From contig NC_045140.1 in NCBI RefSeq assembly GCF_008831285.2, positions 21,140,370-21,204,369 on the forward strand: a stretch of 64,000 nt of DNA, in the 5' to 3' direction. This DNA comes from Nymphaea colorata. Taxonomy: Eukaryota > Streptophyta > Magnoliopsida > Nymphaeales > Nymphaeaceae. Below, piece by piece: positions 21,976-64,000 of the stretch; positions within the stretch are counted from its first letter, which is position 1; each line of letters starts with the position of its first letter. The notes beneath the pieces were generated by a model, which was not told where the DNA came from, searched no databases, and saw only the letters and a list, made by a program, of their open reading frames with translations. The position numbers and the translations under genes are program-made.

Positions 21976-22635
21976 ATTGGATCTTTGACCCGTAAGTTGT
22001 TTTGTTGGATTACTCAGCCGAATTCTGTAGAAAGATTGATGACATGGAGTTCGATCGAATTGAGTAAAAGTTGGCTTACTACCGGTGATGTGGAGAGAGT
22101 TGTGGGGAAGTCTTGACGTCTCTGAACAAAGTTTCCACCTTACATATTCATTAATATGTCACAACCTTTCTCCTCTATGCCGAGTTTTTATGTTAATGCC
22201 CTTTTTTAAAGCGTGCTGGTTAACGCTCACCAAGTATTTACCTCTTGAGCGAAAAAATCCATTAAATGTTCTCATCTTAGCTGGACAGAGTTTAACACCA
22301 TCACTAAAGGGAGCCAGCCAAAGAGCATAAATTAACATAAAAAACACAAAACATCTAAGGTCTATTAAAACGACATACTGCACATCCAGAGTTCTATCAA
22401 CTATTACTTAGTTGCAAAAACAACAAGGAGAGTGTTCAGACGAAGTTCTGTGTATAAGAAACAGTATATGAGTCGACCGATCTATCAAAGTGTCCTCATG
22501 CTATATGACTACCAAACTGCCAGAATGCCAAAGACAACGCAACGCTTTTGGTGTAGAACGCACACATCAAGAAACCAGAACAAAAATCACAAAAGTTTAA
22601 TAGTCAGTTTCTGGTCTGGCTTCTCAAGAGTGAGC

Positions 22636-32960: not shown

Positions 32961-34014
32961 GAGTTTGCAGAGGTTGTTTTCATTACAGTATCTGAGACGC
33001 CAAACTTGCTAGAGATATATCAAAGACTATAGGCAAAGCTGGCCAACGCAAGTTGCGTACCCAATTTTATTAATAAGAATGATGCATTCGATCAGTTAAC
33101 AGACAGTCTGAGCAAGAGGAAGCATAAACCTGCTTTAGTTGTTCCAGATGATGTTTGGTCTGAAACAATACTCCAGAGGCTTGTATTCAGGAGGACAGGC
33201 TGAAGAACACTAATTACATCAAGAATCAATTTTAAGGGTCTTGATTTAGCCTAACCTTTACAAATGTTGGGACCAGAAGATGCCAGGGATCTGTCCTGTC
33301 AATCAGCTTTCGCCCTTGATAAGCTGGATCCTGAGCTTCTGGAACAGCTCGAACAGGTGAAACTAGACGTTGTGTTCAGCATATTTTTCTCATGCTGAAG
33401 TCTTGATCCTGAACTTCTCAGCTGACTCGTATTTCTTACTCCCCATTTCTGGAGAAAATGGAAAACCTCAAGATTTTGATTTGTGCGAACCATAGCGCAC
33501 TCCCTTCAGGATTACACGACCTGTCTGCATTGGGTTCTCTGAAGAATCTCCACAGAATAAGACTTGAGAAAATATGAGTCCCTCCTCTTTCTACTTTTAT
33601 ATAAGCAATGCAGACAGTTCCAGAAGCTAGAACTGGACGACTGCCATGGTGTAGAGACATTGCCTGCTGGATTATGCAGTCTTACCAATCTACAGAAACT
33701 GAGCATAACAAATTGCCCTGATCTAGTTGAACTGCCTGAGGTCATAGGTGGATTAGGAAGATTAGAGGTCCTAAGGTTACTCTCTTGTTCAAGTTTGGAA
33801 GGCCTTCCGGATTCCTCATGTGAACTTGGAAGCCTCAGATTCTTGGATCTGTCTCATTGCTCGAGCATTGAGAGCTTGCCAGACAACATTGGCCAGTTGC
33901 AGCATTTGAAAAGAATTGATATGAGATGGTGCTTAGGGCTGACGGAACTGCCTACATCAGTGTCACAGTTGAAAGGTTTTAGAGCAGTTGTTTGTGATGA
34001 GGAGGCCTTTTGAG
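32958..34014 (+). pseudogene. RPW8-type (RNL) NLR pseudogene
   Basis: RNLs (ADR1 and NRG1 types) are helper immune receptors acting downstream of TIR-NLRs. A partial NB-ARC exon (32958-33356) shows VVFITVSETPNLLEIYQRL, the kinase-2 motif as LVVPDDVW, and ITSRINFKG, and ends at a CAG|GTGAAA donor. It has in-frame stops (TAG near 33030, TGA near 33200), where the paralogue at 38.5 kb reads through. P-loop, GLPL and MHD parts are absent. The next exon (about 33395-33577) resembles the RNL post-NB region (AEVLILNFSADSYF, EKMENLKIL) with one frameshift. The last exon (about 33612-34014) is open for about 134 residues of LRRs, with LPAGLCSLTNLQKLSITNCP and LPDNIGQLQHLKRIDMRWC, and ends VVCDEEAF. 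The Ile/Leu-Cys-Pro spacing is typical of ADR1-like LRRs. A pseudogene, though the LRR exon is well kept. Confidence 0.8.
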
Positions 34015-34135
34015 CGTGTGCTCAGCAATGTAACGTTTCAGGTTCCTAAACAACTTCTGAACTTGAAATTTCTTGTATAATCATTCTAGACTATCCAGTA
34101 CCCATAGGGCTCGCTTGGCAAAGGGACCAGCTTAG

Positions 34136-34152
34136 ATATATATATATATATA
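34136..34152. repeat. Short (AT)n, ancestral state of the 49.6-kb microsatellite
   Basis: About eight AT units just after the RNL LRR exon. The duplicated copy of this locus at 49561-49647 has about 43 units. Confidence 0.85.
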
Positions 34153-39484: not shown

Positions 39485-40143
39485 AAAACGTTTTATAAAC
39501 ACAAAATTAGAAATAAAAAATAAAAAGACTATGAATGATACTTTTAATAAATTATCAAAATGTCCCTCCTTTCACCATGACGGGTAAAAGGGCATATAAC
39601 TCAAGTTGCCCAAAAAAAAAAAAACTATAAAACAATGAGAAAACTGATAATCATTTGTGAAGTTAAAGTTTAACCGGGTAAACACTTTGCCTTTCCACTC
39701 TAGCTTTGCTCAGGACTTGCTCGTATCTGGAGATGACAATGATTCTGCTTTTTGGGCTGAGCCATTCTTGTCTGCAGGCGAATGGGTCGAGTTGCTTTTC
39801 ATCGTCAACATATAAAGATTTTCAATTTTATCTCTTTCAATTTCTGCTGCACTTCTTACTTTTAGTGGGACTGTTAAAAAGCTTTTCAATTTTAGCTCTT
39901 TCTATTTTTCTTTGAGAGACCTCTTGTGAAACTCAAGGGAGTCCAGCAACATATCTAAAATAAAAAAAAATAAAAAAAAAATTTGTAGCAAGATAGTACA
40001 GGCAAGAAAAGCATCTGATTGCAAACTGTAACATGAATTATCATAAAGCCCTAACTCCCACATAAAGCTCTTCACATACTAAGAAGAACGTGTTGCATTC
40101 AAATAATACCAACGAATGAACAAAAGGAAAGACAGATAATGCG

Positions 40144-40303
40144 TACCCTTAATTCTTGAAGCTTACCAACAGTTTTATCAGAATGAGGGAACAATTCTTC
40201 TCCAAGAAGTAGAGTGACAATACAACCCTCGTTTCCAGCGAAGCATCCATCTGTTGGATCCTCTTGAAAATCCACGATGAGAAACATCGCCTTACACACC
40301 TGA
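40144..40303 (-). other. Possible exon remnant
   Basis: An open stretch between AG (near 40304) and a GT-like border (near 40144) reads VCKAMFLIVDFQEDP and then GCIVTLLLGEEL. It resembles an internal exon more than random sequence, and the AG|GTGTGTAAGGC start is kept in the right arm of the inverted duplication (near 48890). I do not recognise the family; a post-LRR segment of an NLR is possible. Confidence 0.3.
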
Positions 40304-40835
40304 AAGCAGGATTAGGGTTCCTTAAAATCCTTATTGCTTTGCCAGAAAATGCAATAGGAATGAAGTTTTCTAAGTTGAGCATTTAGTAACTTAAAGGAAA
40401 ATAGTAGTATTCTCTACTTGTTACAAGAAACTAGAGCTGACTTTTAAATCTAATATCTTTTTCAAGATTTTTCCTTTCTCGCTCTCTCTCTTTGATGGAG
40501 GGATCCACATCGAGTACCTAATTTCCGAGAACGTACTAGGAAGGGGCGAAGGAAACAAGCTGATAAAATGGGGGTGTGCAGTTCTTATAAATTTGAAGCC
40601 TCTTTCCACTCCTTTCTACTCGAGAGACGTCGAGGGTCAAATTTGCTTCGCTCCTTTTCTGCCAAACCAGGAACTGCTTCACTTCATTCTTCCTCGAGGG
40701 GTGGCGCCACGTCTAGACGACACAGCTCTACTGTAATGAAACTGCCTTCCCTGAATCTGCCTTCCCACTCCTTTAAGTGTTCTCTCTCTCTCTCTCTCTC
40801 TCTCAACCCGTAGCTTTGGTTAGCAGATTAGAGTA

Positions 40836-41144
40836 ATGTCCATCAATGGTAGTGAGCAGCCTCCTCCGAAGACGGAGGAGCAGCAGGATCAATATTTCGA
40901 CAAGGGATCGGCGGTTGCCTGCGTGTGTTGTTGCGTTCAACTTGGCGGGCTTAGCCGGGATGATCTTGCTGTATCAAAACTGTCTGCATGTTACATTGCT
41001 GTGGCAGTGGTGGCATTCGTACTCTCTTTATTCGTCTTGGTTTTCTGCCATGACCTCCCTCGTGGTGTCCGCAAATTCTGTTTGTCCGTGGCGTTTTTCG
41101 CCTTGTTTCTGGACTACTGGATCATCAAACCGCTTCTACCCTAG
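40836..41144 (+). CDS. Unknown small two-helix membrane protein, copy 1
   Basis: A 102-codon ORF starts MSINGSEQPPPKTEEQQDQY and ends WIIKPLLP. The first 25 residues are polar, then comes a Cys cluster (VACVCCCV), then two hydrophobic segments (about residues 52-70 and 81-96), so a small membrane protein is plausible. I do not recognise the family. A pyrimidine-rich leader (40785-40805) precedes the ATG. The same protein, residue for residue, is coded on the other strand at 48046-48354. An overlapping frame (40846-41283, 145 codons) is also open and runs into the LRR fragment, so frame choice rests on composition and on the hydropathy pattern. Confidence 0.45.
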   Translation: MSINGSEQPPPKTEEQQDQYFDKGSAVACVCCCVQLGGLSRDDLAVSKLSACYIAVAVVAFVLSLFVLVFCHDLPRGVRKFCLSVAFFALFLDYWIIKPLLP

Positions 41145-41194
41145 AGATAACAGGAAGGTGACTCTCTCTCTCTTCTCTTTTAGTTTTGTACCAT

Positions 41195-41283
41195 TGCCAG
41201 ACTCACTATGCAGATTAAAGAGCCTCAGATTTTTTGGTGTGTCTGACTGTGCAACCATCAGTAGCTTAAATTTTCTCAAATAG
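41195..41283 (+). pseudogene. RNL LRR fragment in left arm
   Basis: Reads LCRLKSLRFFGVSDCATIS, one LRR unit of the same type as at 39.23 kb, and stops soon after. It was carried along by the inverted duplication (47.90-47.99 kb on the - strand). Confidence 0.7.
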
Positions 41284-42057
41284 AAAACTCAGAGTGACCA
41301 CCCAAGGACACTGCCATTTTGCGTTGAATGAAAATGGTAAATGTTGTAATCAGTTTCTGTTTGTGTTCTTTCTTATACAAAGGATTGCATGGACATGAGA
41401 CTGGTAATTTCTATTTGTCATGTGTAAAGTGGAGTTCATTCTTTACGTTCTCCCGATAGACAAATTGTATCTGTTTTTTTGGGCAATGCTGCAATTCAGA
41501 TCCACCACTTGAGGTAAACTCAACATATGTTTCTTCTTTATTGATGTTGCTCACAGTGACCATGTTCCTCCTGATCTAAATGAGGATATTGCAGGGTTTG
41601 CTTTAATGTGAAAATTTTAACAAAACAGAAAAGGAGAAAAGAGGAACCGATAGGATCTCATCAACTTCACTCTCATCAACACGAACCCAAGCAGCTTTAG
41701 AATTACCGTTTAATGCCAGTCTATTTATCAGAAATTAAGGTAGTTTGGCAGCGCGAATCTCACGATATTAGTTTTGTTTTCCATTTAGTAGATGTTTTAA
41801 AATATTTGCTAACTAATTTAAAATAAAAGTAACATATGGCGTCCACACTTTCAGATAGTGAACAGCTGCAAGTTTCACCCGCTAGCACCAAAACTGATAG
41901 GAGCGTCACTGAAGAAAGCAGAGTTAAGCAAATGGAGAACCACTGCTAAAAATCTTCATGGAAAGGGAAAGTTTTTTAATAACCTTAAGGAAGTATTTTG
42001 GCCACTCAAAGCCAACCTGGACTCCTTGCAGAGCCAGTGGAACGGGAGTGTTTTATG

Positions 42058-46440: not shown

Positions 46441-47846
46441 ACAACGAAAAAGAAAGAAATTTATCGGTGGTGCTCGACAGGAAAATGACCCCGTGATGTA
46501 CATTTATTAAGATCACCAAACACCTTCCCTAGAAAGAAAATAAAGAAAAAGAGCGATACTGGAAACCACGTGCACATTTCCAAAAGAAACATGGCGTCAC
46601 GCCAAGATTATAGTATCTTTGATTGCAGTCCTGTGAAAGAAACCCTAGCTTCTGTGTGCGGTGAAAAAGGTATCACCCGCACGATGATTCACTCTCCCAA
46701 CAGCACAATCACATCGAACTAACACGACCCATCTCCAAGGTAAGGAACAGGTTTCATCGCTTTTCCGAATTTAATATTAACTTCAGAGTTGTAAAGATAA
46801 TTATGTCGGCCAATTTGAATGGAGCTAGTGGTAAATCAATTCCATTCGTCGGCTCATATAAAGATGCCATATTTAAAGTTTTTAATTCTGATTAATTTCT
46901 ACATGTCTAGGGAAATATATTAACGTCTTTTCTGATTTGAATCGCTTAATCAGTGATCCTAAGTGGGCAGATGATTCAATTCAATTCCAATCTTGACGAC
47001 AATGATTAAAACAGATTTATAGTAGCAACACTGTAAATCTTAGTAACCGAAGGGCGGCATCGTGTAGTTGTACTTTCTCAATCCCTACTAGTACTACACT
47101 AAGGTTTTTAAAAGGAGGAAACTGATGAACTTTTCAAATGGAAGTTTTTGTTTCCAGCTTCAAGGTTGGCATTGTGAGTCATTCCCATACACACAACAAA
47201 TGCTATCCCAAGAAAATGCTACTAAGACGAAAACAATGGGATTATCCCTCTCATCATCCCATGTGACTCCGAGTCGTTTGGGCAAAAGAGAGACCATTTT
47301 ATGCAGTAGACCACATAACTAGCTTATTTTATTTCACAATTCAGTGGTGATGAGAAAATAACAAGATTTCACAACTTAAAACAAAATGCGAAGATAGATG
47401 ACAAGGCTTAGGTGCCCTGGCCTGCTTTGACATGTCATTGACCCTTTACATGTGAAGAAGAAGAATTCACTTTCCAAAGATGCCCTTAGAGTCGCAGAAG
47501 TATGAAGTCCACAACACTTGCCTGTTGACCCTGTGAGCATGTTTTCTGAAAGAAGATATGTCTGAAAGTCGTTGTAAGCATTATGAAAGCTCGCCTCTGA
47601 ATCAAAACAAAGCAGTCACAAATGCTCTCCATGTACCAAGAGCGATTGGAGATTTTGTTTGAACTAAACCACCAGAGCATTATAACCAGCAAGAGAACAG
47701 ATATTCACATACGTTCCCTTAGAGCGTTTGAAATATCTCTTAGTTTCTTACCGAGACACCAATGATGATAGATGTAAAATGTACAGATTTCTCACCCCAC
47801 CCAAGCATCCAACAGTAGCAGAATTTTCCAGACAGCAAGAATTCAA
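46440..47846. other. Spacer with diverged cassette flank
   Basis: No gene recognised. Positions 46.84-47.05 kb resemble the subfamily-2 flank (21.6, 28.85, 57.32 kb), and 47.12-47.30 kb resembles 26.87-27.05 kb. A possible leader with GTAAGG donor lies near 46740. From 47.35 to 47.84 kb nothing is recognised. Confidence 0.4.
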
Positions 47847-48907
47847 CCATTTTCATTCAACGCAAAATGGCAGTGTCCTTGGGTGGTCACTCTGAGTTTT
47901 CTATTTGAGAAAATTTAAGCTACTCATGGTTGCACAGTCAGACACACCAAAAAATCTGAGGCTCTTTAATCTGCATAGTGAGTCTGGCAATGGTACAAAA
48001 CTAAAAGAGAAGAGAGAGAGAGAGAGAGTCACCTTCCTGTTATCTCTAGGGTAGAAGCGGTTTGATGATCCAGTAGTCCAGAAACAAGGCGAAAAACGCC
48101 ACGGACAAACAGAATTTGCGGACACCACGAGGGAGGTCATGGCAGAAAACCAAGACGAATAAAGAGAGTACGAATGCCACCACTGCCACAGCAATGTAAC
48201 ATGCAGACAGTTTTGATACAGCAAGATCATCCCGGCTAAGCCCGCCAAGTTGAACGCAACAACACACGCAGGCAACCGCCGATCCCTTGTCGAAATATTG
48301 ATCCTGCTGCTCCTCCGTCTTCGGAGGAGGCTGTTCACTACCATTGATGGACATTACTCTAATCTGCTAACCAAAGCAACGGGTTGAGAGAGAGAGAGAG
48401 AGAGAGAACACTTAAAGGAGTGGGAAGGCAGATTCAGGGAAGGCAGTTTCATTACAGTAGAGCTGTGTCGTCTAGACGTGGCGCCACCCCTCGAGGAAGA
48501 ATGAAGTGAAGCAGTTCCTGGTTTGGCAGAAAAGGAGCGAAGCAAATTTGACCTTCGACGTCTCTCGAGTAGAAAGGAGTGGAAAGAGGCTTCAAATTTA
48601 TAAGAACTGCACACCCCCATTTTATCAGCTTGTTTCCTTCGCCCTTTCCTAGTACGTTCTCGGAAATTAGGTACTCGATGTGGATCCCTCCATCAAAGAG
48701 AGAGAGCGAGAGAGGAAAAATCTTGAAAAAGATATTAGATTTAAAAGTCAGCTCTAGTTTCTTGTAACAAGTAGAGAATACTACTATTTTCTTATAAGTT
48801 ACTAAATGCTCAACTTAGAAAACTTCATTCCTATTGCATTTTCTGGCAAAGCAATAAGGATTTTAAGGAACCCTAATCCTGCTTTCAGGTGTGTAAGGCG
48901 ATGTTTC
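47847..48907 (-). repeat. Inverted duplication, right arm (partner 40281-41338)
   Basis: Reverse complement of the left arm over its whole length, slightly longer (1061 bp) because of small indels and a longer GA run (about 48012-48030). Homology ends at 48907, within GATGTTTC, where unrelated sequence begins. Confidence 0.9.
48046..48354 (-). CDS. Unknown small two-helix membrane protein, copy 2
   Basis: Codes the same 102 residues as 40836-41144 (+), with one silent change visible in the serine/glutamate region (GAG versus GAA). The family is unknown; see copy 1 for the description. Identity of both protein and flanks shows a very recent duplication, so the identity says nothing about selection. 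The alternative overlapping frame (48344 down to 47901, 147 codons) differs between copies by two inserted residues from the CT-run length. Confidence 0.45.
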   Translation of the reverse strand: MSINGSEQPPPKTEEQQDQYFDKGSAVACVCCCVQLGGLSRDDLAVSKLSACYIAVAVVAFVLSLFVLVFCHDLPRGVRKFCLSVAFFALFLDYWIIKPLLP

Positions 48908-49202: not shown

Positions 49203-49438
49203 GTAGAACTTTGATAAAGAACTCATGCATGTGTATGACCTCATGTGAACTTGGAAGCCTCAGATTCTTGGATCTGTCTCATTGCTCGAGCATTGAGAGC
49301 TTGCCAGACAACATTGGCCAGTTGCAGCATTTGAAAAGAATTGATATGAGATGGTGCTTAGGGCTGACGGAACTGCCTACATCTGTGGCACAGTTGAAAG
49401 ATTTTAGAGCAGTTGTTTGTGATGAGGAGGCCTTTTGA
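49203..49438 (+). pseudogene. Chimeric fragment: B3 exon-1 piece joined to RNL LRR end
   Basis: Positions 49203-49228 match a 26-bp piece of B3 exon 1 (compare 44275-44300), here in the same strand sense as the array. At about 49229 it joins the last three LRRs of the RNL (paralogue 33817-34014), with LPDNIGQLQHLKRIDMRWC and the end VVCDEEAF. The LRR part is open but has no exon border or start of its own. Confidence 0.75.
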
Positions 49439-49558
49439 GCGTGTGCTCAGCAATGTAACGTTTCAGGTTCCTAAACAACTTCTGAACTTGAAATTTCTTG
49501 TATAATCATTCTAGACTATCCAGTACCCATAGGGCTCGCTTGGCAAAGGGACCAGCTT

Positions 49559-49560
<2 letters not shown>

Positions 49561-49647
<87 letters not shown>
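49561..49647. repeat. (AT)n microsatellite, expanded
   Basis: About 43 perfect AT units. Flanks on both sides match 34.1 kb, where only about eight units are present. Confidence 0.97.
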
Positions 49648-50381: not shown

Positions 50382-51383
50382 TCAAGTTGGTGCACAGATG
50401 TCAATCTGTCCCAACTTGTTTGAAATGTATTGGTGCTTGTTTCGTCCAAGGGTCTTCGTCAAAATATCTGCAAGTTGATTGTCACTGTTAACATATGGAG
50501 TTTCTATAGTCCTGTCTTGAATTTTTTCTCTGATAAAGTGACAGTCAACTTCTATATGCTTTGTCCTCTCATGAAAAACTGGATTTGCTCCAATGTGAAT
50601 TGCTGCCATGTTGTCACAAAGAAGTTTCATGGGAATCTTTACGTCCACAAGCATGTCTTTCAGTAACGATTTCAACCACACCAGTTCACATGTGCAAGAT
50701 GCCATAGCCCTATACTCTGCCTCTGCGCTTGATCGAGCTACGACTGACTGTTTTTTGCTTCTCCATGTTACTAGATTTCCTCCAACAAATGTGCAATAGC
50801 CTGATGTAGATCTTCTGTCATTGGGATTACCAGCCCAGTCTGCATCGGAGTATCCAAAGACATCAAAAGATTTGTTTCTTTTCATTAAAATTCCTTTTCC
50901 AGGAGACCCCTTTAGATACCTTACTATTCTATGAGCTGCTTCCACATGTGTTGATCTTGGTTTATGCATGAATTGACTTATAAGGCTAACTGCATAAGTA
51001 ATATCCGGACGAGTGACAGTTAGGTAAATTAGCTTGCCAACTAATTTTTGGAAGCTATGGACATTTTTCACTATTTCACCATCGTCATGTGTGAGTTTGC
51101 AGTTGAGTTCCAATGGAGTGTCGACTGGCTTAGCTCCCATGCATCCGGTTTCCTGAAGGAGATCCAAGACATATTTCCGTTGACACAAGAAAATTCCTTT
51201 ATCTGAATGTGTCACTTCTATACCCAGAAAGTACCTTAATATGCTTAAATCTTTTATTTCAAATTGGCTGTGAAGGTACTTTTTGACTCGACTCATGAAG
51301 TCAGTGTCGTCTCCTGTCATAATGATGTCGTCAACATACACAAGAAGAATTGTGATCTTCGAATCTCGTGTGGAAACAAACAT
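50382..51383 (-). pseudogene. Ty1/copia pol, RT end and RNase H part
   Basis: Open frame of 333 codons, the 3' part of pol after the frame break caused by the RT duplication. It holds the second instance of the RT active-site motif YVDDIIMTGDD (about residues 16-26), the connection domain (FLGIEVTHSDKGIF, GKLIYLTVTRPDI), and RNase H with GYSDADWAGNPNDRRSTSG, the SSAEAEYRAM block, and an end with QLADILTKTLG, all usual for copia. It stops just before the polypurine tract. It cannot be made as part of the polyprotein because the duplication shifts the frame. Confidence 0.93.
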
Positions 51384-51660
51384 AGTGTAATCAGCGGAGC
51401 TTCTTTTGAATCCAATCTTGGCAAGCGCATCACTGTGCCACTTCTATACCCAGAAAGTACCTTAATATGCCTAAATCTTTTATTTCAAATTGGCTGTGAA
51501 GGTACTTTTTGACTCGACTCATGAAGTCAGTGTCGTCTCCTGTCATAATGATGTCGTCAACATACACAAGAAGAATTGTGATCTTCGAATCTCGTGTGGA
51601 AACAAACATAGTGTAATCAGCGGAGCTTCTTTTGAATCCAATCTTGGCAAGCGCATCACT
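51213..51660. repeat. 222-bp tandem duplication within RT
   Basis: 51213-51434 and 51439-51660 are the same sequence apart from one base I can see (near 51471), with GTGC between them. The repeat period is 226 bp, which is not a multiple of three. Confidence 0.95.
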
Positions 51661-54174
51661 AAGACGAGAAAACCATGCACGTGGAGATTGCTTAAGTCCA
51701 TAGAGGGCCTTTTTTAATCGACACACATAGCCCATCTTGCTTTCAATGCCTTGAGGGACCTCCATGTAGACCTCTTCATTGATGTTTCCATGCAAAAATG
51801 CATTTTTTACGTCAAGTTGCATAATATCCCATTCTTTATTTGCAGCAACTGAGAGCAATGTTCTGACCGAATTCATTTTTGCAACTGGTGCAAAAGTTTC
51901 AGTGTAATCTTCTCCTTCAGTCTGAGTAAATCCTTTTGCTACTAGTCGGGCTTTAAAACGTTCAATAGAACCATCACTTTTATATTTTACTTTGTAGATC
52001 CATTTGCACCCAACGATCTTTTTTCCATCTGGCAATGGTACTAGGTCCCAAGTGTTATTTTTCTGTAGTGCTGAAATTTCCTCTGTCATGGCATCCCTCC
52101 ACTGTTTATTTTTGCTAGCCTCCTCATAGTTTTTTGGTTCTTGGATAGAATAGGTTTTTAGGATATAGTCTTTGTAGGATTTAGACATGTTGTCAAAGGT
52201 AAAGTAGTTGTCGATGGAGTGAGAGTTGTGGGTGGACAGATAAGTGTAGTAGTCACTAAGCTTTGATGGAGGTTTATGTAGTCTTGATGATTTCCTAGGG
52301 TTTTCCGTAGTGATGGACTCAAGGGGTCTTGTTTGTTGGTTCACTACAGGTTGGTTTGACTGAATGGTAGGTTCAAGTTGAGGAGCTAATTCAGCTGACT
52401 CGGGTTCATAAAGGTTTTGGTGTAGCACTTCATTGGAGGCATTTTCATCGACAAGAGGCTCAGGAGCCGTATGATAAGATCCATGAACTTCATCAAAAAT
52501 TCTAAGTAGTGGACGAATGGAGTTGTCGTCTTTTGTGGAACTTGTTTCTTCCTGTCTAGAAAAAACATAATATGGCTCTTGCTCGAAGAATTTGACGTCT
52601 CGAGTCACAAAATATTTTTTTGAATGAGGATCATAACATTTGTATCCCTTTTTTCTACTAGAATAACCAAGAAAAATACATTTCATAGCTCTTTTGTCAA
52701 ATTTATTTCGAAAACCTGCTTGTATGTGAGCAAAACACTTGCATCCAAACACTTTTAAGTGTTGGATGGAAATTTTTCGATTTAACAAGATTTCAAGAGG
52801 AATTTTGTAGTCAATACTAGAACTTGGAATTCTATTGGCGAGGTAGCAGGCTATTCCAATAGCATCAGTCCAAAAATGTTGGGGAACGTTCATGTGTATC
52901 ATGAGAGAACGGGCAATATTGAGTAATTGCCGATTTTTGCGTTCCGCCACTCCGTTTTGTTGCGGAGTTTCGGCACAAGAGTTTTGTGGTTGAATTCCGC
53001 GTTTTCTCATGAACTCTTTTAAAGTTTCGTGCATGTATTCCCCACCATTGTCAGACCGAAGCTTTTTTATTTTAATTCCATATTGTGTAAAAATCATGTT
53101 ATAAAATTCTTCAAAAATTTGTGGTACTTTACTTTTGAATTTTAGAAAAAATAACCATGTAACACGAGACTTGTCATCAATGAAAGTCACATAATATTTA
53201 TAACCCAAATAAGAGTCTACCGGGGCTGGTCCCCAAACATCGGAATGTACCAAATCAAAGAATTCAGCAGATCGTTCAGCAGTATGATGAAAAGGTAATC
53301 TAACTGACTTAGCAAATTCACATGCATCGCAAGCAAAATTACCAACATGAACATTAGGAAACAAAAGTTTAAAAGTACGGTCTGAAATATGCCCCAAACG
53401 TGAGTGCCATTTATGATATTCTGAAAAACATGCATTCTTGGAGTAGGTAAGAAGGCTAGAGTCTGGTTGATCCAACACGTACAGCCCATTGAGTTCACGC
53501 CCCCTACCAATCTCCCTCCTCGTTGTAAGGTCCTGAAAGATCACTTCCTTTGGAGAAAAAGTAACCAGACAGTTGTGAGATTTTGTTAATTTACTAACAG
53601 AAATTAAACTAGCAGAAATTTGGGGCACATATAAAATTGTAGAGCATGCTTTATTCTCAAGCAAAGAAGTTTTTCCAATCCCTTTGACGGCGATAGGGGC
53701 TCCATTAGCAGTAAAAACAGGACCCCTTTTTACATTTTCTAAATTAGCTAGTTTTAAAGAGTCACTCGTCATGTGATCTGTAGCACCGGAATCAATAATC
53801 CAAGGAGATTCATTAGAAAAAGTGTAAAGAGCATGAGACGTACCTTCTTTGTTGTGGACAGGTTGGGAGGAAACTAAATTAGTCTTGGAAAATTGTTGAA
53901 AAATTTTTTCCAGATCTCCTTTGGTGACGAAATTTGCTGCGTCACTTTCCTTGGACGTGGGTACCTTCTCCCTAGTAGGACGTCCAACCAATTCCCAGCA
54001 TTTCTCACGGATATGACCAAGTTTTTTGCAATGAGTGCACTTGATCTTGTTCCGATTTCTTTGGTAGTTGCTGCTGCTATTTTGATTTTTGGAGTTGGTA
54101 GCATCGTTGAGAGCAAGATAAGCCATCTTCTCAGATGATTCCTCACTGGTTTGGGTATTGGGCAATTGATTCAT
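51430..54174 (-). pseudogene. Ty1/copia pol (nucleocapsid to RT), frame-broken at 3' end
   Basis: Open frame of 914 codons. In order: zinc knuckle CTHCKKLGHIREKCW (about residues 46-60), protease with DSGATDHM (about 128-135), GAG-pre-integrase HxxxH/CxxC region (about 253-285), integrase with FIDDKSRVTWLF and SDNGGEYMHETL, ETPQQNGVAERKNR, then the RT region with EEISALQKNNTWDLV, KWIYKVKYKSDG, ARLVAKGFTQ, DVKNAFLHG, LKKALYGLKQSPRAW and the first YVDDIIMTGDD. The frame ends soon after entering the duplicated segment. It begins in the same reading frame as the gag part, from which one TAG codon separates it. It would cleave, integrate and copy the element in an intact copy. Confidence 0.93.
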
Positions 54175-54177
54175 GAC

Positions 54178-54741
54178 CTAGCGCCTAGAGTGTTCTCGTT
54201 GTATAGCTTGACATACACTATTGAAACTAGGAAGGGGAGTAGTCATAAGAATTTGACTTCTGAATCCTTCATAGTCACTACCAAGGCCAGCAAGAATTTT
54301 GAACACCTTGTCTTCCTCAACACGTTGTTTGTAAATTTCTGGATCTGAGGTCGGTGGTCTATATTGCATAAGTTCTTCCCACAAACTGCGATTTTGGCTC
54401 AAGTACATGTGTAAAGGCTTGTCTCCAAGGATTAACTTAGCAATTTCGACCTGAATCTGATAGACTCTAGCAGCATTATTTTGTTCACTAAAAAGATCTT
54501 TCAAAGTTTCCCATATTTCTTTTGCAGTCTCTTGATATAAAAGTGTATCAGATATATGAGATTCCATAGAGTTTAAGAGCCAGGACATTACCAGATCGTT
54601 CTCAGATTCCCATCCTTTGTATTGCGGATCTGTCTTGGGTGGCTGTTTGATGTCGCCATTTATGTACCCAATCTTTGATCTGCCGCTGAGGAAGAGTCGA
54701 GCTGCTCTAGCCCAGCTGAGGTAGTTTGCTCCATTCAGCAA
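54178..54741 (-). pseudogene. Ty1/copia gag (UBN2-like) part
   Basis: A 187-codon frame from GANYLSWARAARLFL to AIQREHSRR, the capsid part of copia gag. It ends in a TAG (54178-54180) just before the nucleocapsid, in the same frame as the following pol. The natural start is probably ATG at 54839-54841 (MAESHGNES), but a 10-bp tandem repeat (54755-54764, 54765-54774) puts that start out of frame with the rest. Confidence 0.88.
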
Positions 54742-54903
54742 CGTTGAGGTGATCTTCAGAGTATTTCAGAGTATGATTGCTGTGATCATCCTTTGACGTT
54801 TTGGATGAATCTCTGCTCTCGTTACCATGAGATTCTGCCATTGGTATGAGCAGAGGATGTTCTTGATAACAGGAGGAAAAAGAGCAGGGCCTTATGCAGA
54901 GAT

Positions 54904-59465: not shown

Positions 59466-60110
59466 GTGACCTATAAGTTGTTGGGACAGCGAAAATGCAC
59501 TAATGTTTTCGAAATGGTGTGGTATCGTACGTATCGTATTTGGTGGTCATATCCCTTTGCGCGCAGCACCTTCGCAGCCCTTCCCTCTAGTGCATACAAG
59601 CTGAATATGATTGTGTTTGTACGCGAGGGAGAAACGATTCTTCTACACTACTAACAGCAAATAAAAGCCAATACAGAAAAAGAGACCAAGGCAACACTTA
59701 ATTCTAAGTGTTGTTACCAGAAGCACGGTACGAAACTAAGAGAGAAGAGAGAGAGAGAGAGAGAGAAGGAGTCACCTTCCTGTATTTGAAAAATGTAAAA
59801 AACTAAGTTGCATGACGTATGGACATTGAATATAGACTATTTATTTAATAGGAGTCTCAATATATTAAGAACTTGGTGCAGAAGAAACTTGCGCAAATCA
59901 ATAGAACAGAACTAGCTAGATACTAGATAGATTGATTAAAAATCAATGGTCGCTATGCCAGCTTCCGCCGACCAGGTCTCATTATGGTTATTTGAATGTT
60001 CAACCGAATCAACGAGTCAACTCGCAGATCCAGTGACCTGGTCATTTGCCAATTCGAGTCCAAATCATAGATTTGCCAATTCGAGTCCAAATCATTTGTG
60101 AAGTTAAAGT
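59466..60110. other. Spacer with a fragment of the inverted-duplication sequence
   Basis: No gene recognised. Positions 59728-59780 (GA run plus GTCACCTTCCTGT) match 47993-48043 of the right arm, so even this short stretch is duplicated. A 24-bp tandem repeat holding TTGCCAATTCGAGTCCAAAT lies at 60045-60092. Confidence 0.5.
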
Positions 60111-60262
60111 TTACGTGATTAAGTTTCTCCAACTCCAAGCATCTTGCTTTCCAAACATGTCTTGTAGAGAAACGAGAAGCCAAGAATTTTCTCTATAAAA
60201 GGAAGTAAGGAGGAAATCTTGAGAGAGAGAGAGAGATATGCATACCCCTCGGTCTGTATTAC

Positions 60263-60733
60263 GAGGACATAGCCTACCAATGCGGCTACTTGCCTCAAAG
60301 AGTCTCTCCATTCGTTCACAGTCTCCTCGCTCACGTTCTTGTTGTTCGTGTGCTCCTGAAATGCATCCTCAAATGGTCCACTCTGATTCTTTACAGCGGA
60401 AGGCTCCACATCTAAAAACACAGGAATGATCAACCTTCCCGTCTTCACCCTCTGCGTGACCTCCATGAGGCACCACTGTGATTCAGCGTACCCTCTCGAG
60501 ATGATGGGCACAAAAATCTTCGACTTCTTAATGTATTCAAGCAATTCATGGATTTTTTCCCTCTTTTCCAGACTTTCGTTATCTATAAAGGTGTGGATTC
60601 TTCTCCGGGTTAGAGCTGCGTAGAGATGGCCTGTGAAAGTCTTGCGCGTCTCTTCCTCGAAAACTGAGGAACACATCAAACTGAAAGATTCCCCTGCTTC
60701 TTCCTGAGAAAGATGCTGCTCCTGCTTCCAGCT
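60263..60733 (-). pseudogene. TIR domain exon of a TIR-NLR, frameshifted
   Basis: TIR domains of plant immune receptors are NAD-cleaving enzymes that signal through EDS1 and RNL helpers. This exon shows TRKTFTGHLYAALTRRRIHTF, IKKSKIFVPIISRGYAES, QWCLMEV (the region of the catalytic Glu), LIIPVFLDVEPSAVKNQSG and ends GYVL at a GTAATA donor, all as in TNL exon 1. At the N terminus the FDVFLSFRG motif is present but in another frame: one base is missing near 60654-60660. Upstream of it an AG border near 60734 precedes the exon. No NB-ARC exon follows downstream on this strand; NB-ARC sequence lies instead on the 5' side (61.06-61.58 kb), so the order is scrambled. Confidence 0.85.
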
Positions 60734-60875
60734 ATCTACAAATATTACATGCATTCAGATAATTGGCTTTTCTTTCAACTCTACAGAGTCCAGACTCTCT
60801 TTCTTTCTGTCCATGGTTGGGCTGATACATTTTTACTAAGAATTAGGCTTCCTTTCTCTCTCTCTCTCTCTCTCG

Positions 60876-60876
<1 letters not shown>

Positions 60877-60973
<97 letters not shown>

Positions 60974-60993
60974 ATATATATATATATATATAT
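60877..60993. repeat. (TA)n microsatellite
   Basis: About 58 TA units, interrupted once (C at 60972), preceded by a CT run (60854-60874). Confidence 0.97.
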
Positions 60994-61056
60994 TCAAACA
61001 GAAGAAAAGGAAATCATGGAACCAATTTTAAAAAGACAACACTTGTGTACATACCA

Positions 61057-61580
61057 TGGAGTCTCCCAGCAGTTTCGGAACTATCACACTGCTATTGCTA
61101 TTCCATAGCCTGCTACGACTGTATGGGACAATTGCTCTGCCCATCTTCCGAATTTCATCATGCATTTCAAACTGTCCATCACTGGTAATCTTGATTAAGG
61201 ATCTGCGCTGAAGGGTTTGAACAGACAAATGAGGGGAAAGATGGCAATCGTCCCTCATATAAAGTGCTTTTGCTTTATCTATTCCGTAAATGAAACGAGC
61301 GATATCTGGAAATATTTGTTGTTTTTTCTTTCCTAAACCATTATAGTTTCTTCTTAGTCTTTCATGGATCATTTTGTGTTGATTTTCCTGTAATTCTCTC
61401 AACAGCTTTCTCCATTTTTTTTTCGCAATGTACGCCAGAAAATAATGAACCGAATACTTCAAGGATCAACGGTATGCCGTTGGTGGTTTGCGCAACTCCT
61501 TTGGATAATTGCTTCTGCTTTGCTGTTGGCTCATCCTTCCCAAAAGCATGGCAACAGAACAGTTCAAGAGACAAACGTTT
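61057..61580 (-). pseudogene. NB-ARC C-terminal fragment of a TIR-NLR
   Basis: The second half of an NB-ARC domain: RLSLELFCCHAFGKDEPT, then NGIPLILEVFGSLFSG (GLPL motif as GIPL), KKQQIFPDIARF (RNBS-D region), [20 protein letters not shown] (MHD motif) and RSRLW at the end, with a GTATGT donor near 61055. A nine-A run near 61415-61423 shifts the frame by one. P-loop and kinase-2 are missing because the sequence is cut at 61580 by the centre of an inverted repeat. It was an ATP-binding switch in the intact receptor. Confidence 0.83.
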
Positions 61581-61984
61581 AAAAACGTTTGTCTCTTGAA
61601 CTGTTCTGTTGCCATGCTTTTGGGAAGGATGAGCCAACAGCAAAGCAGAAGCAATTATCCAAAGGAGTTGTGCAAACCACCAACGGCATACCGTTGATCC
61701 TTGAAGTATTCGGTTCATTATTTTCTGACGTACATTGCTAAAAAAAATGGAGAAAGCTGTTGAGAGAATTACAGGAAAATCAACACAAAATGATCCATGA
61801 AAGACTAAGAATAAGCTATAATGGGTTAGAAAAGAAAGAAAGAACAAATATTTCTAGAAATCGCCCGTTTCATTTACGGAATAGATAAAGCAGAAACATT
61901 TTATACGTGGGACGATTGCCATTTTTCCCCTCATTTGTCTGTTCAAACCCTAAAGCGCAGATCCTTAATTAAGATTACCAGTGA
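61179..61984. repeat. 402-bp inverted repeat of NB-ARC sequence (2-nt centre)
   Basis: Left arm 61179-61580, centre AA at 61581-61582, right arm 61583-61984. The inner 150 bp are almost perfect, beginning ACAAACGTTT / AAACGTTTGT at the centre; differences and small indels increase outward (worst near 61810-61860). The left arm is the - strand NB-ARC coding sequence; the right arm reads the same protein on the + strand, with TAA in place of GAA near 61739. Coding similarity continues only beyond the left arm, so the right arm is the copy. A transcript through it would fold into one long hairpin. Confidence 0.93.
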
Positions 61985-62198
61985 CTAATAAAGAGAGTGT
62001 TCAGACGAAGTCTGTGTATAAGAAACAGTATATGAGTCGACCGATCTATCAAAGTGTCCTCAAGCTCTATGACTACCAACTGCCAGAATGCCAAAGACAA
62101 CGCAACGCTTTTGGTGTAGAACGCAGGCATCAAGAAACCAGAACAAAAATCACAAAAGTTTAATAGTCCGTTTCTGGTCTGGCTTCTCAAGAGCTAGC

Positions 62199-63971
62199 CT
62201 AGCTTCTGCCTGTCCTACTAAGTTTCAGGGGAGTAGTTTCCTCCACCACCCTGAATATGATGACCTTCAGGATCAGCACCTTCTTCTTGTTGTTGATGAG
62301 CTCGAATGCGCAAACATCGCCTTCTTCCAGGTTGTTGTCATAGACGAAGTTTGACCAGCCACTTTCCAGCCCGCCTCTGTCTCCCCTGCGCAAGAGCCTA
62401 ACGGGCCATTCTCTGCCCTCCACATTTTGAACCTTGATAGTCCTTGTCTAGCCGAGTATGTAATGGGCTCTAAGAAAATCCACTGGGATGTTCTGCAATC
62501 AAAGCAAGCAAGCATAGGGTTTGAACCGGATGAGGCAACCTGCTGTTGTTAGCATTTAAGAAATCGGCCAGGATCAGCTGAAATATATGTACAAATGCTC
62601 CGCTTTGTCGGTTTCTAATATGAGACTAAAACTGAGATTTACAACATTGGCATCAACAGCTAGAGTGTAAATTCATTGGATCCAATATGGAAACTTATAA
62701 TTTTTGGGTATGTCTGTTATGTGGGAAAGCAGGAAAAAGAAGGAAATCCAACTGTGAAACATGCAAGGTTTTCCTGCTATCAAGCGTATCCAAGTAAGTG
62801 CATGCTAAGAACACCAATTGAAATGAAGATTAATAAAAGGCTGATTTTTCAAATGGTTTCGAGAGAATTACCACGTAAAATCCTTTATAAACGCATGTTG
62901 GTTTTATGATGACGATGAACGATGGAAAAGGCGACTCCATGGATGCCGCGGCCCAGAATACTTTCCTCTTCTCTTCACGAGACACCGGCCTCCTCCTTGA
63001 TATGAAGTACTTTGTATATTTCTGCTTCCTGGCAGCATTTTCTGTAGGAACAAATAATTAGCAGATATTCCACACACTAGAATCTCTCTCTTCCCCCTCT
63101 TCTTCACACATACGCACCTAAGATGGAGGGATGACCTTTCCCTTTGCCCATGATTATAAAACATATAGCAGAATACGAGACATATATAAACAAATTTGAG
63201 CAAGTGGTGAAGTGTACCTGGCTTCTTGCCTTTAGTTTCTCCCCCATGCATCTCTTCGCTGCTAAAGTGATCTTCCTTCGATTCACAAGACGTATCACTT
63301 AACTCTTCTTCTTCTTCTGCTTCTTCTTCTTCTTCTCCTTCTTCTTCTTCGTCTTCTTCTCCTTCTTCTTCGTCGTCTTCTTCCTCTTCTTTCTCTTCTT
63401 CTTCTTCTTCTTCTTCTTCCGTTTTTATGTTGATGATCATGTGGTTGCTGCACGAACCTCCTTCATTCACTTTGTCCTGTACCCTCTTTGACATGCAGTA
63501 TTGCTAAATACCTCCACTGAAAAACTCACTTCACCATCGTACGCAAAGAGGAGGAGTTCCTCTTCTTTAAAAGAATTTTCTTCTGCGAATGTCCTCCAAC
63601 CATCTTTGAAACATAACCGATTGTTGATCTTCGCCAGCTGAACAGTACAAGTCATCCCACTGGGACCGGTCAATAGGGCTATTCTGTTCAGTTTGTCCCC
63701 AATATAATTGTAGAAGCTTGGGGGAATCCACTACAAATCAAAAATTAAAATATTCAATCGATCATCATGTTTTTATTAATAATATCTGGAATTAATGTTC
63801 ATGTTCATAAAACGACTACTACTATACATGCACAAGATCATAGGCAGAAGGCATCATGAAGAATGCCGAAAGCTTACAAGTTGTCGAGAGAAGTCACCGA
63901 GTAGAACTTTGATAAAAAAACTCATGTTTTGTCCCAGGAGCCCATTTCCTACAATCAGCACAAAGTTCCAT
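62199..63971 (-). pseudogene. REM-type B3 gene, copy C (three lesions)
   Basis: Same four-exon design as A and B: 63878-63971, 63218-63730, 62872-63041, 62199-62492. Exon 1 has seven A where A has six (63914-63920), shifting the EFFI codons. Exon 2 lacks four bases near 63480 (after the CQRG codons), a second shift. Exon 4 has TAG at 62448-62450 in place of the Glu codon of GETR, cutting the second B3 domain. The Glu-rich linker is longer than in B. The splice borders are kept. It is a clear pseudogene of a two-domain REM protein; upstream sequence runs off the window. Confidence 0.85.
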
Positions 63972-64000
63972 CTCCTAGATACCAATGAGAACAGCAGTTA

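Follow-up and report, generated by a model that had tools for sequence, protein, structure and literature searches.

A near-perfect NB-ARC palindrome in Nymphaea colorata, most likely a break-repair scar with silencing potential

Does a long inverted repeat made of NB-ARC sequence mark a source of small RNAs directed against NLR genes, or does it merely record a past rearrangement? The question is raised by a palindrome close to the end of a 64,000-nucleotide stretch of Nymphaea colorata DNA (C3:21140370-21204369, hereafter the window), for which the original prediction had left three readings side by side: a proto-MIRNA gene, an siRNA locus or a rearrangement scar. The stakes are evolutionary: one account derives the miRNAs that target NLR genes, with some probability, from inverted repeats of parts of such genes, so that a duplication of this type is where the path to NLR-targeting small RNAs presumably starts (PMC10575705). 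We analysed the locus against a genome of 408 Mb in 783 contigs, and conclude that the palindrome is most likely a break-repair scar with silencing potential.

The palindrome is genuine. As predicted, two 402-nt arms in reverse complement surround a 2-nt centre (Table 1), and they are 94.5% identical over 403 aligned columns, differing by 20-21 substitutions (the count varies with the aligner) and by one 1-nt insertion per arm. Folded as RNA, the sequence forms a single 806-nt stem of -657.7 kcal/mol, against a mean of -184.6 (sd 6.0) for 20 shuffles, a difference that rules out a chance origin. We also looked for further inverted pairs (80 columns or more, identity of 80% or above, gap below 3 kb) in 253,703 bases, a non-random sample in which simple sequence had been masked. 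One other pair was listed, on C7 (20656383-20658758; 82% over 889 columns, 686-nt gap), about 8 kb from the NLR gene described below.

Table 1. Coordinates of the palindrome, of the duplicated copies around it and of the neighbouring B3-gene unit (positions of the window unless marked otherwise)
Feature	Position	Strand	Remarks
Left arm	61179..61580	-	3' portion of NB-ARC, from GLPL to winged helix; minus-strand coding sense; frame-broken
Centre AA	61581..61582	.	Flanked by two copies of AAACGTTT
Right arm	61583..61984	+	Inverted copy of left arm; coding sense on plus strand; frame-broken
MHD-region continuation of left copy	61060..61178	-	Colinear with C7; left limit approximate; partner missing in right copy
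TIR2 exon, left copy	60205..60786	-	Frame-broken; Pfam TIR 4.7e-28; 90% to C7
Downstream flank of TIR2, left copy	60090..60286	-	83% to C7:20666194-20666386
TIR2 inverted partner	68100-68618 (outside window)		90.8% to left copy over 60089-60628
Further paired piece	59579..59766	.	Inverted partner 70267-70081, 95.7%
Sister remnant	39491..39808	-	TIR2 flank joined to upstream NB-ARC at GTTTAACCGGG
B3-gene unit 3, start	61987..64000 (to 68095 outside window)	-	93.6% / 93.9% to units at 22422 / 42399
B3 gene, last part and stop codon	62199..62447	-	Open frame; Pfam B3 2e-15; transcribed towards right arm

The Pfam families found in the window are TIR, WHD_ROQ1, B3, LRR and copia gag. The predicted NB-ARC coding origin of the arms is supported by matches of the left copy to WHD_ROQ1 (E 1.3e-9) and of its relative on C7 to NB-ARC (E 1.4e-28); the right-copy arm pieces alone, 52 amino acids each, matched no Pfam family. 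The palindrome contains segments that we take to be the GLPL and RNBS-D motifs, the equivalent of GLPL being GIPLILEVFG, and an open frame at 61028-61465 (-) includes FEMHD. Both arms are nevertheless dead as coding sequence now, because of frame damage that arose separately in each: the left arm has gained one nucleotide at coding position 158, and the right arm has a stop codon at 157-159 and an additional nucleotide at 257.

A genome search with the palindrome returned eight matches from four candidates, all scored: its own locus, C7:20667230-20667622 (92% to the left arm and 93% to the right) and two further places on C7 at 67-69%. Among the matches found, the locus at C7:20.667 Mb is the sole one above 70% apart from the palindrome's own place. 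A longer query (60100-61580; 43 matches from 29 candidates, all scored, with counts for large families being lower bounds) gave no further relative of the NB-ARC part above 70% among the matches listed; pieces of its TIR2 region also occur at C7:20678629-20678905 (81-92%). The close relative (C7:20666404-20669608) has an odd exon order: on the minus strand, a TIR exon is followed by an exon holding NB-ARC and winged helix in one open frame, and then by a second TIR exon, TIR2, whose frame is broken by a frameshift. No LRR frame was recognised near it among the listed frames of at least 80 amino acids. The two more distant relatives (about 68%) are TNL genes: one, L007, matches the Pfam NB-ARC, winged-helix and LRR families and has a TIR-like exon read from its frames, and the other, L006, resembles it by its frames alone. 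The source of the palindrome resembles the TIR/NB-ARC/TIR locus on C7.

Comparison with this relative indicates that a fragment of a TIR/NB-ARC/TIR gene was duplicated in inverted orientation over a greater length, and that the palindrome is probably what survives of the middle. The left copy (60090-61572) is colinear with C7:20666194-20667622 and spans the MHD region and the TIR2 exon, in which its frameshift sits elsewhere than the one in TIR2 of C7. The right copy stops at 61984 and resumes at 68100, outside the window, with inverted TIR2 sequence; pieces colinear with C7 reach 69943, and about 420 bp (C7 20666811-20667229) are missing after the intervening insert. Outward from the centre, both copies follow the order of the C7 gene. 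The inverted NB-ARC duplication and the hairpin fold of the original prediction stand, but not their extent: the copies continue on both sides and past the window end. A stand-alone duplication of 402 bp was rejected on the same ground. The further paired piece, which by its position presumably belongs to the same duplication, matches nothing in the part of C7 used for comparison, a point against this explanation.

What separates the two parts of the right copy is 6.1 kb of B3-gene sequence (61987-68095), one unit of a tandem array. Units of this array start at 22422, 42399 and 61987 in the window, and a fourth lies outside it, at 71597-77944; the third is 96.1% identical to 71597-77523, and copies 3 and 4 are nearly identical along part of their length. 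The left flank present in units 1, 2 and 4 is absent from unit 3, and the right-hand continuation found in units 2 and 4 (46700-47848 versus 77532-78676, 90%) is cut off at 68095, so that unit 3 is truncated at both joints. The 402-bp limit of the arms is set by this insertion and not by the duplication. A frame that is open in copies 1 and 2 is disrupted in copies 3 and 4 by the same 4-nt deletion, and the B3 gene may be decaying for this reason.

The duplicated NLR fragment sits in a rearranged B3/NLR cluster. Elsewhere in the window, an LRR-coding fragment (Pfam LRR_14, 3.9e-15) is present at 33561-34013 and 49239-49577, with 99% identity between 33814-34152 and the latter, and a 1.06-kb segment occurs as an inverted pair (40281-41338 and 47846-48907; 98.5% identical, 6.5 kb apart). 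A copia-type retroelement occupies 50382-54765 (-); its long open frames, of 915 and 353 amino acids, overlap within a direct repeat of 227 bp (51208-51660).

How many events produced the copies can be judged from their divergence. With the C7 gene and the two TNLs as outgroups, 11 changes were assigned to the left arm, 8 to the right and 6 to both in common, leaving 2 of undecided polarity (positions 314 and 370), which the total of 21 arm-to-arm differences still includes. These figures omit the first 8 columns, whose alignment is upset by a 12-nt deletion common to both arms, and 3 of the 19 assigned changes (positions 324, 341 and 388) are ambiguous, the outgroups having the supposedly derived base. 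The arms thus differ at 21 of about 400 sites (~5%). For the TIR2 sequence on the far side of the B3 insert, left and right differ at 18 of 407 sites (~4%), and at 33 sites both differ alike from C7. These similar divergences, with C7 more distant, support a single duplication event, after the split from C7.

Substitutions are unevenly spread along the arms. A repeat search divides the palindrome into three ungapped blocks of 98%, 95% and 91% identity from the centre outwards, as expected from the predicted best match at the centre. Of the 21 arm-to-arm substitutions along 394 nt, the 212 nt nearest the centre hold 3 and the remaining 182 nt hold 18 (binomial p 0.00026), against 8 inner and 9 outer changes on the C7 branch or common to both arms (p 0.63; Fisher test between the two sets, p 0.037). 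The arms do match better near the centre, with few sites behind the gradient. The inner part diverges less than expected, a point against the scar in so far as it could reflect constraint on the stem, although arm-to-arm conversion would mimic this and chance may also account for it. The gradient as proof of a selected stem was rejected, given the few sites and the same pattern expected from conversion. C>T and G>A changes, for their part, make up 7 of 19 arm changes, compared with 16 of 53 among the B3 units (p 0.58; an indirect comparison on a small sample, with 3 of the 19 ambiguous). This lack of excess favours a scar over an active siRNA locus, within the limits of a weak test; the same figures give no sign of the deamination footprint that heavy methylation would leave, and that reading was set aside.

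The site of the event can also be read. The palindrome centre is located at AAACGTTTAA, to which the left arm extends; the right arm restarts with AAACGTTT, and the C7 sequence at the matching position is CAAACGTTTAACCGGG. A sister remnant elsewhere in the window consists of C7 20666025-20666212 fused to 20667636-20667779 (93.75% for the second piece): it lacks exactly the stretch held by 60090-61580, with GTTTA common at the joint. Its breakpoint, near 39.67 kb, agrees with that of the palindrome centre; since the same site was repaired in two different ways, a break at this position is suggested. We infer a repair mechanism in which a break at AAACGTTTAA, inside the NB-ARC of the source gene, would have been followed either by joining of the broken end to its sister or by fold-back synthesis, either of which could leave a palindrome with a 2-nt centre. 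The B3 copy would have been inserted later, into the right copy. With neither copy holding the first TIR exon or, probably, its promoter, the locus would be, by default, a scar without selected function, and only B3 read-through or another promoter could supply a hairpin RNA. Among the readings originally offered, the scar has the most positive evidence: both copies continue in C7 order, the B3 unit is truncated at both joints, each arm was damaged on its own, and the breakpoint is common with the 39.67-kb remnant.

The best-surviving alternative is an active siRNA locus of the long-hairpin type. Read-through of the B3 gene (minus strand), the nearest candidate transcription route, would put the right arm, the centre and the left arm in one predicted RNA, whose stem dicer enzymes would process to 21-24-nt RNAs; we consider such activity unlikely, and equally unlikely the remainder of the scenario, in which these RNAs would shut down the TIR/NB-ARC gene on C7 and direct methylation to both places, as at the Arabidopsis PAI and VIM palindromes. 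The structure itself would serve, since a near-perfect, gene-derived inverted repeat with a short spacer is a feature of such loci: 171 of the 382 21-nt windows in the 402-bp stem are free of mismatches, and pairing is closer towards the centre. So would the position, the right arm lying 214 bp past the B3 stop codon (62199-62201) in a B3 copy without its native flank. A homologous gene elsewhere, as a possible target in trans, is found at C7:20667230-20667622, where the C7 gene stretch has exact matches to 99 (left arm) and 126 (right arm) of 382 21-mers. Set against this are the 4-nt deletion in the B3 frame and the frameshift in TIR2 of the C7 gene, which may itself be non-working. The native promoter is probably absent from the locus, because the first TIR exon of C7 has no match of at least 150 bp in 164 kb of C3 besides the TIR2 exons. 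A further reason why the locus may be quiet is that self-silencing through methylation is a tendency of hairpin RNA transgenes whose repeats are perfect (PMC9263138). On balance, siRNA activity of the palindrome is possible.

Small RNAs, if made, would match essentially the C7 gene and two TNLs at one motif. Exact 21-mers of the left and right arms number 0 and 2 in L006, and 0 and 3 in L007. The genome-wide search covered two 22-mers: the one from GLPL, allowing 3 mismatches at most, finds both arms, the C7 gene and one place on C8 (3 mismatches); the other, at RRSLIKI, is exact in the right arm, L006 and L007, has 1 mismatch in the left arm and the C7 gene, and 3 at one place on C10. Backward controls of both gave 0 matches. 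The expectation that such RNAs would match TNL NB-ARC regions holds for one close locus and for two TNLs at one 22-mer, and fails as a broad match; the near-perfect counterparts looked for in TNL genes amount to the 92-93% of C7:20.667 Mb and, in the two TNLs, to only one exact 22-mer. Broad TNL targeting was rejected, with one locus above 70% and these two TNLs among at least 124 NB-ARC matches in the genome (123 of 672 candidates scored). That a B3 copy, its 3' flank replaced by the NLR palindrome, has acquired by read-through a 3' end acting as a natural hairpin that silences the C7 relative seems improbable. If true, it would be an NLR-silencing inverted repeat at a point earlier than all MIRNA stages, perhaps in a flowering plant of an early-diverging lineage.

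Other explanations fare worse. Plant MIRNA hairpins measure at most about 300 nt, and the palindrome pairs over 806 nt in one stem. An early MIRNA gene, with one defined small RNA against TNL genes, is therefore very improbable and was not favoured: no single short duplex stands out, the GLPL 22-mer reveals no broad conserved target site, and the window gave no Rfam match at the gathering threshold, although a new MIRNA would not match either. It gains some plausibility from the proposal that MIRNA genes, including NLR-targeting ones, arise by inverted duplication of their target gene (available part of PMC10575705). An assembly artefact of palindromic long reads is scarcely credible, as the 20-21 arm differences are polarised to either arm, with one indel each, and the right copy resumes past the B3 insert with differences of its own. 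Unspaced palindromes are, however, a known artefact of missed adapters. The assembly was likely built with PacBio RSII, to judge from the available text of PMC7015852. Capture of NB-ARC sequence by a transposable element of the fold-back type would explain the inverted arms and tiny centre but is hardly tenable, since the genome search described above gave no second palindromic copy where a transposable element or MITE would have several, the arms are NB-ARC colinear with a gene, the left one continuing into MHD and TIR, and the ends are a gene fragment at left and a B3-unit joint at right.

Among the titles and abstract openings of the matches listed, we found no report of this locus in the literature on Nymphaea NLRs, small RNAs or endogenous NLR inverted repeats; a search combining several terms for fold-back palindromes in plants gave no papers. 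Partial inverted duplications that give long hairpin RNA reportedly include Mu killer of maize and LGC1 of rice, which are said to target a transposon and storage-protein genes, respectively, with transcription proven. The NLR-targeting MIRNA genes (miR482/2118) are likewise presumed to have started as inverted repeats of NLR gene parts; they are, however, short and precise hairpins against conserved motifs of many NLRs (PMC10575705), whereas the present locus has a long stem and one close genome match. It offers a young example in which the succession of events can be read, with a single close paralogue and a single route of transcription to predict. Should it make no small RNAs, it would show that functionless palindromes of this sort can be left behind by NLR clusters.

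The closest documented systems are the VIM4-VIM2 and PAI1-PAI4 palindromes of Arabidopsis, with which the locus has in common, at the level of sequence, the structural features of a gene-derived inverted repeat. In the available part of the source, the VIM4-VIM2 repeat of Cvi-0 is a near-perfect gene palindrome with a short spacer that followed a rearrangement, has a paralogue elsewhere as a possible target in trans, and is thought to be triggered by spanning transcription, which a deletion shortening the spacer is held to have enabled (PMC13213937). Unlike the Nymphaea locus, it has genes that retain their promoters, and the measurements made on it cover small RNAs, spanning 5' ends and methylation; its first exons are identical (PMC13213937), whereas the arms described here differ by about 5% and belong to a gene fragment that probably has no promoter. 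PAI1-PAI4 of Ws and Cvi is also an inverted gene duplication and makes small RNAs against unlinked copies, but it consists of whole genes arranged tail to tail, with transcription and silencing proven. In both Arabidopsis systems, according to the same text, the small RNAs act in trans on homologues (PMC13213937), the role that the C7 relative could play as target here.
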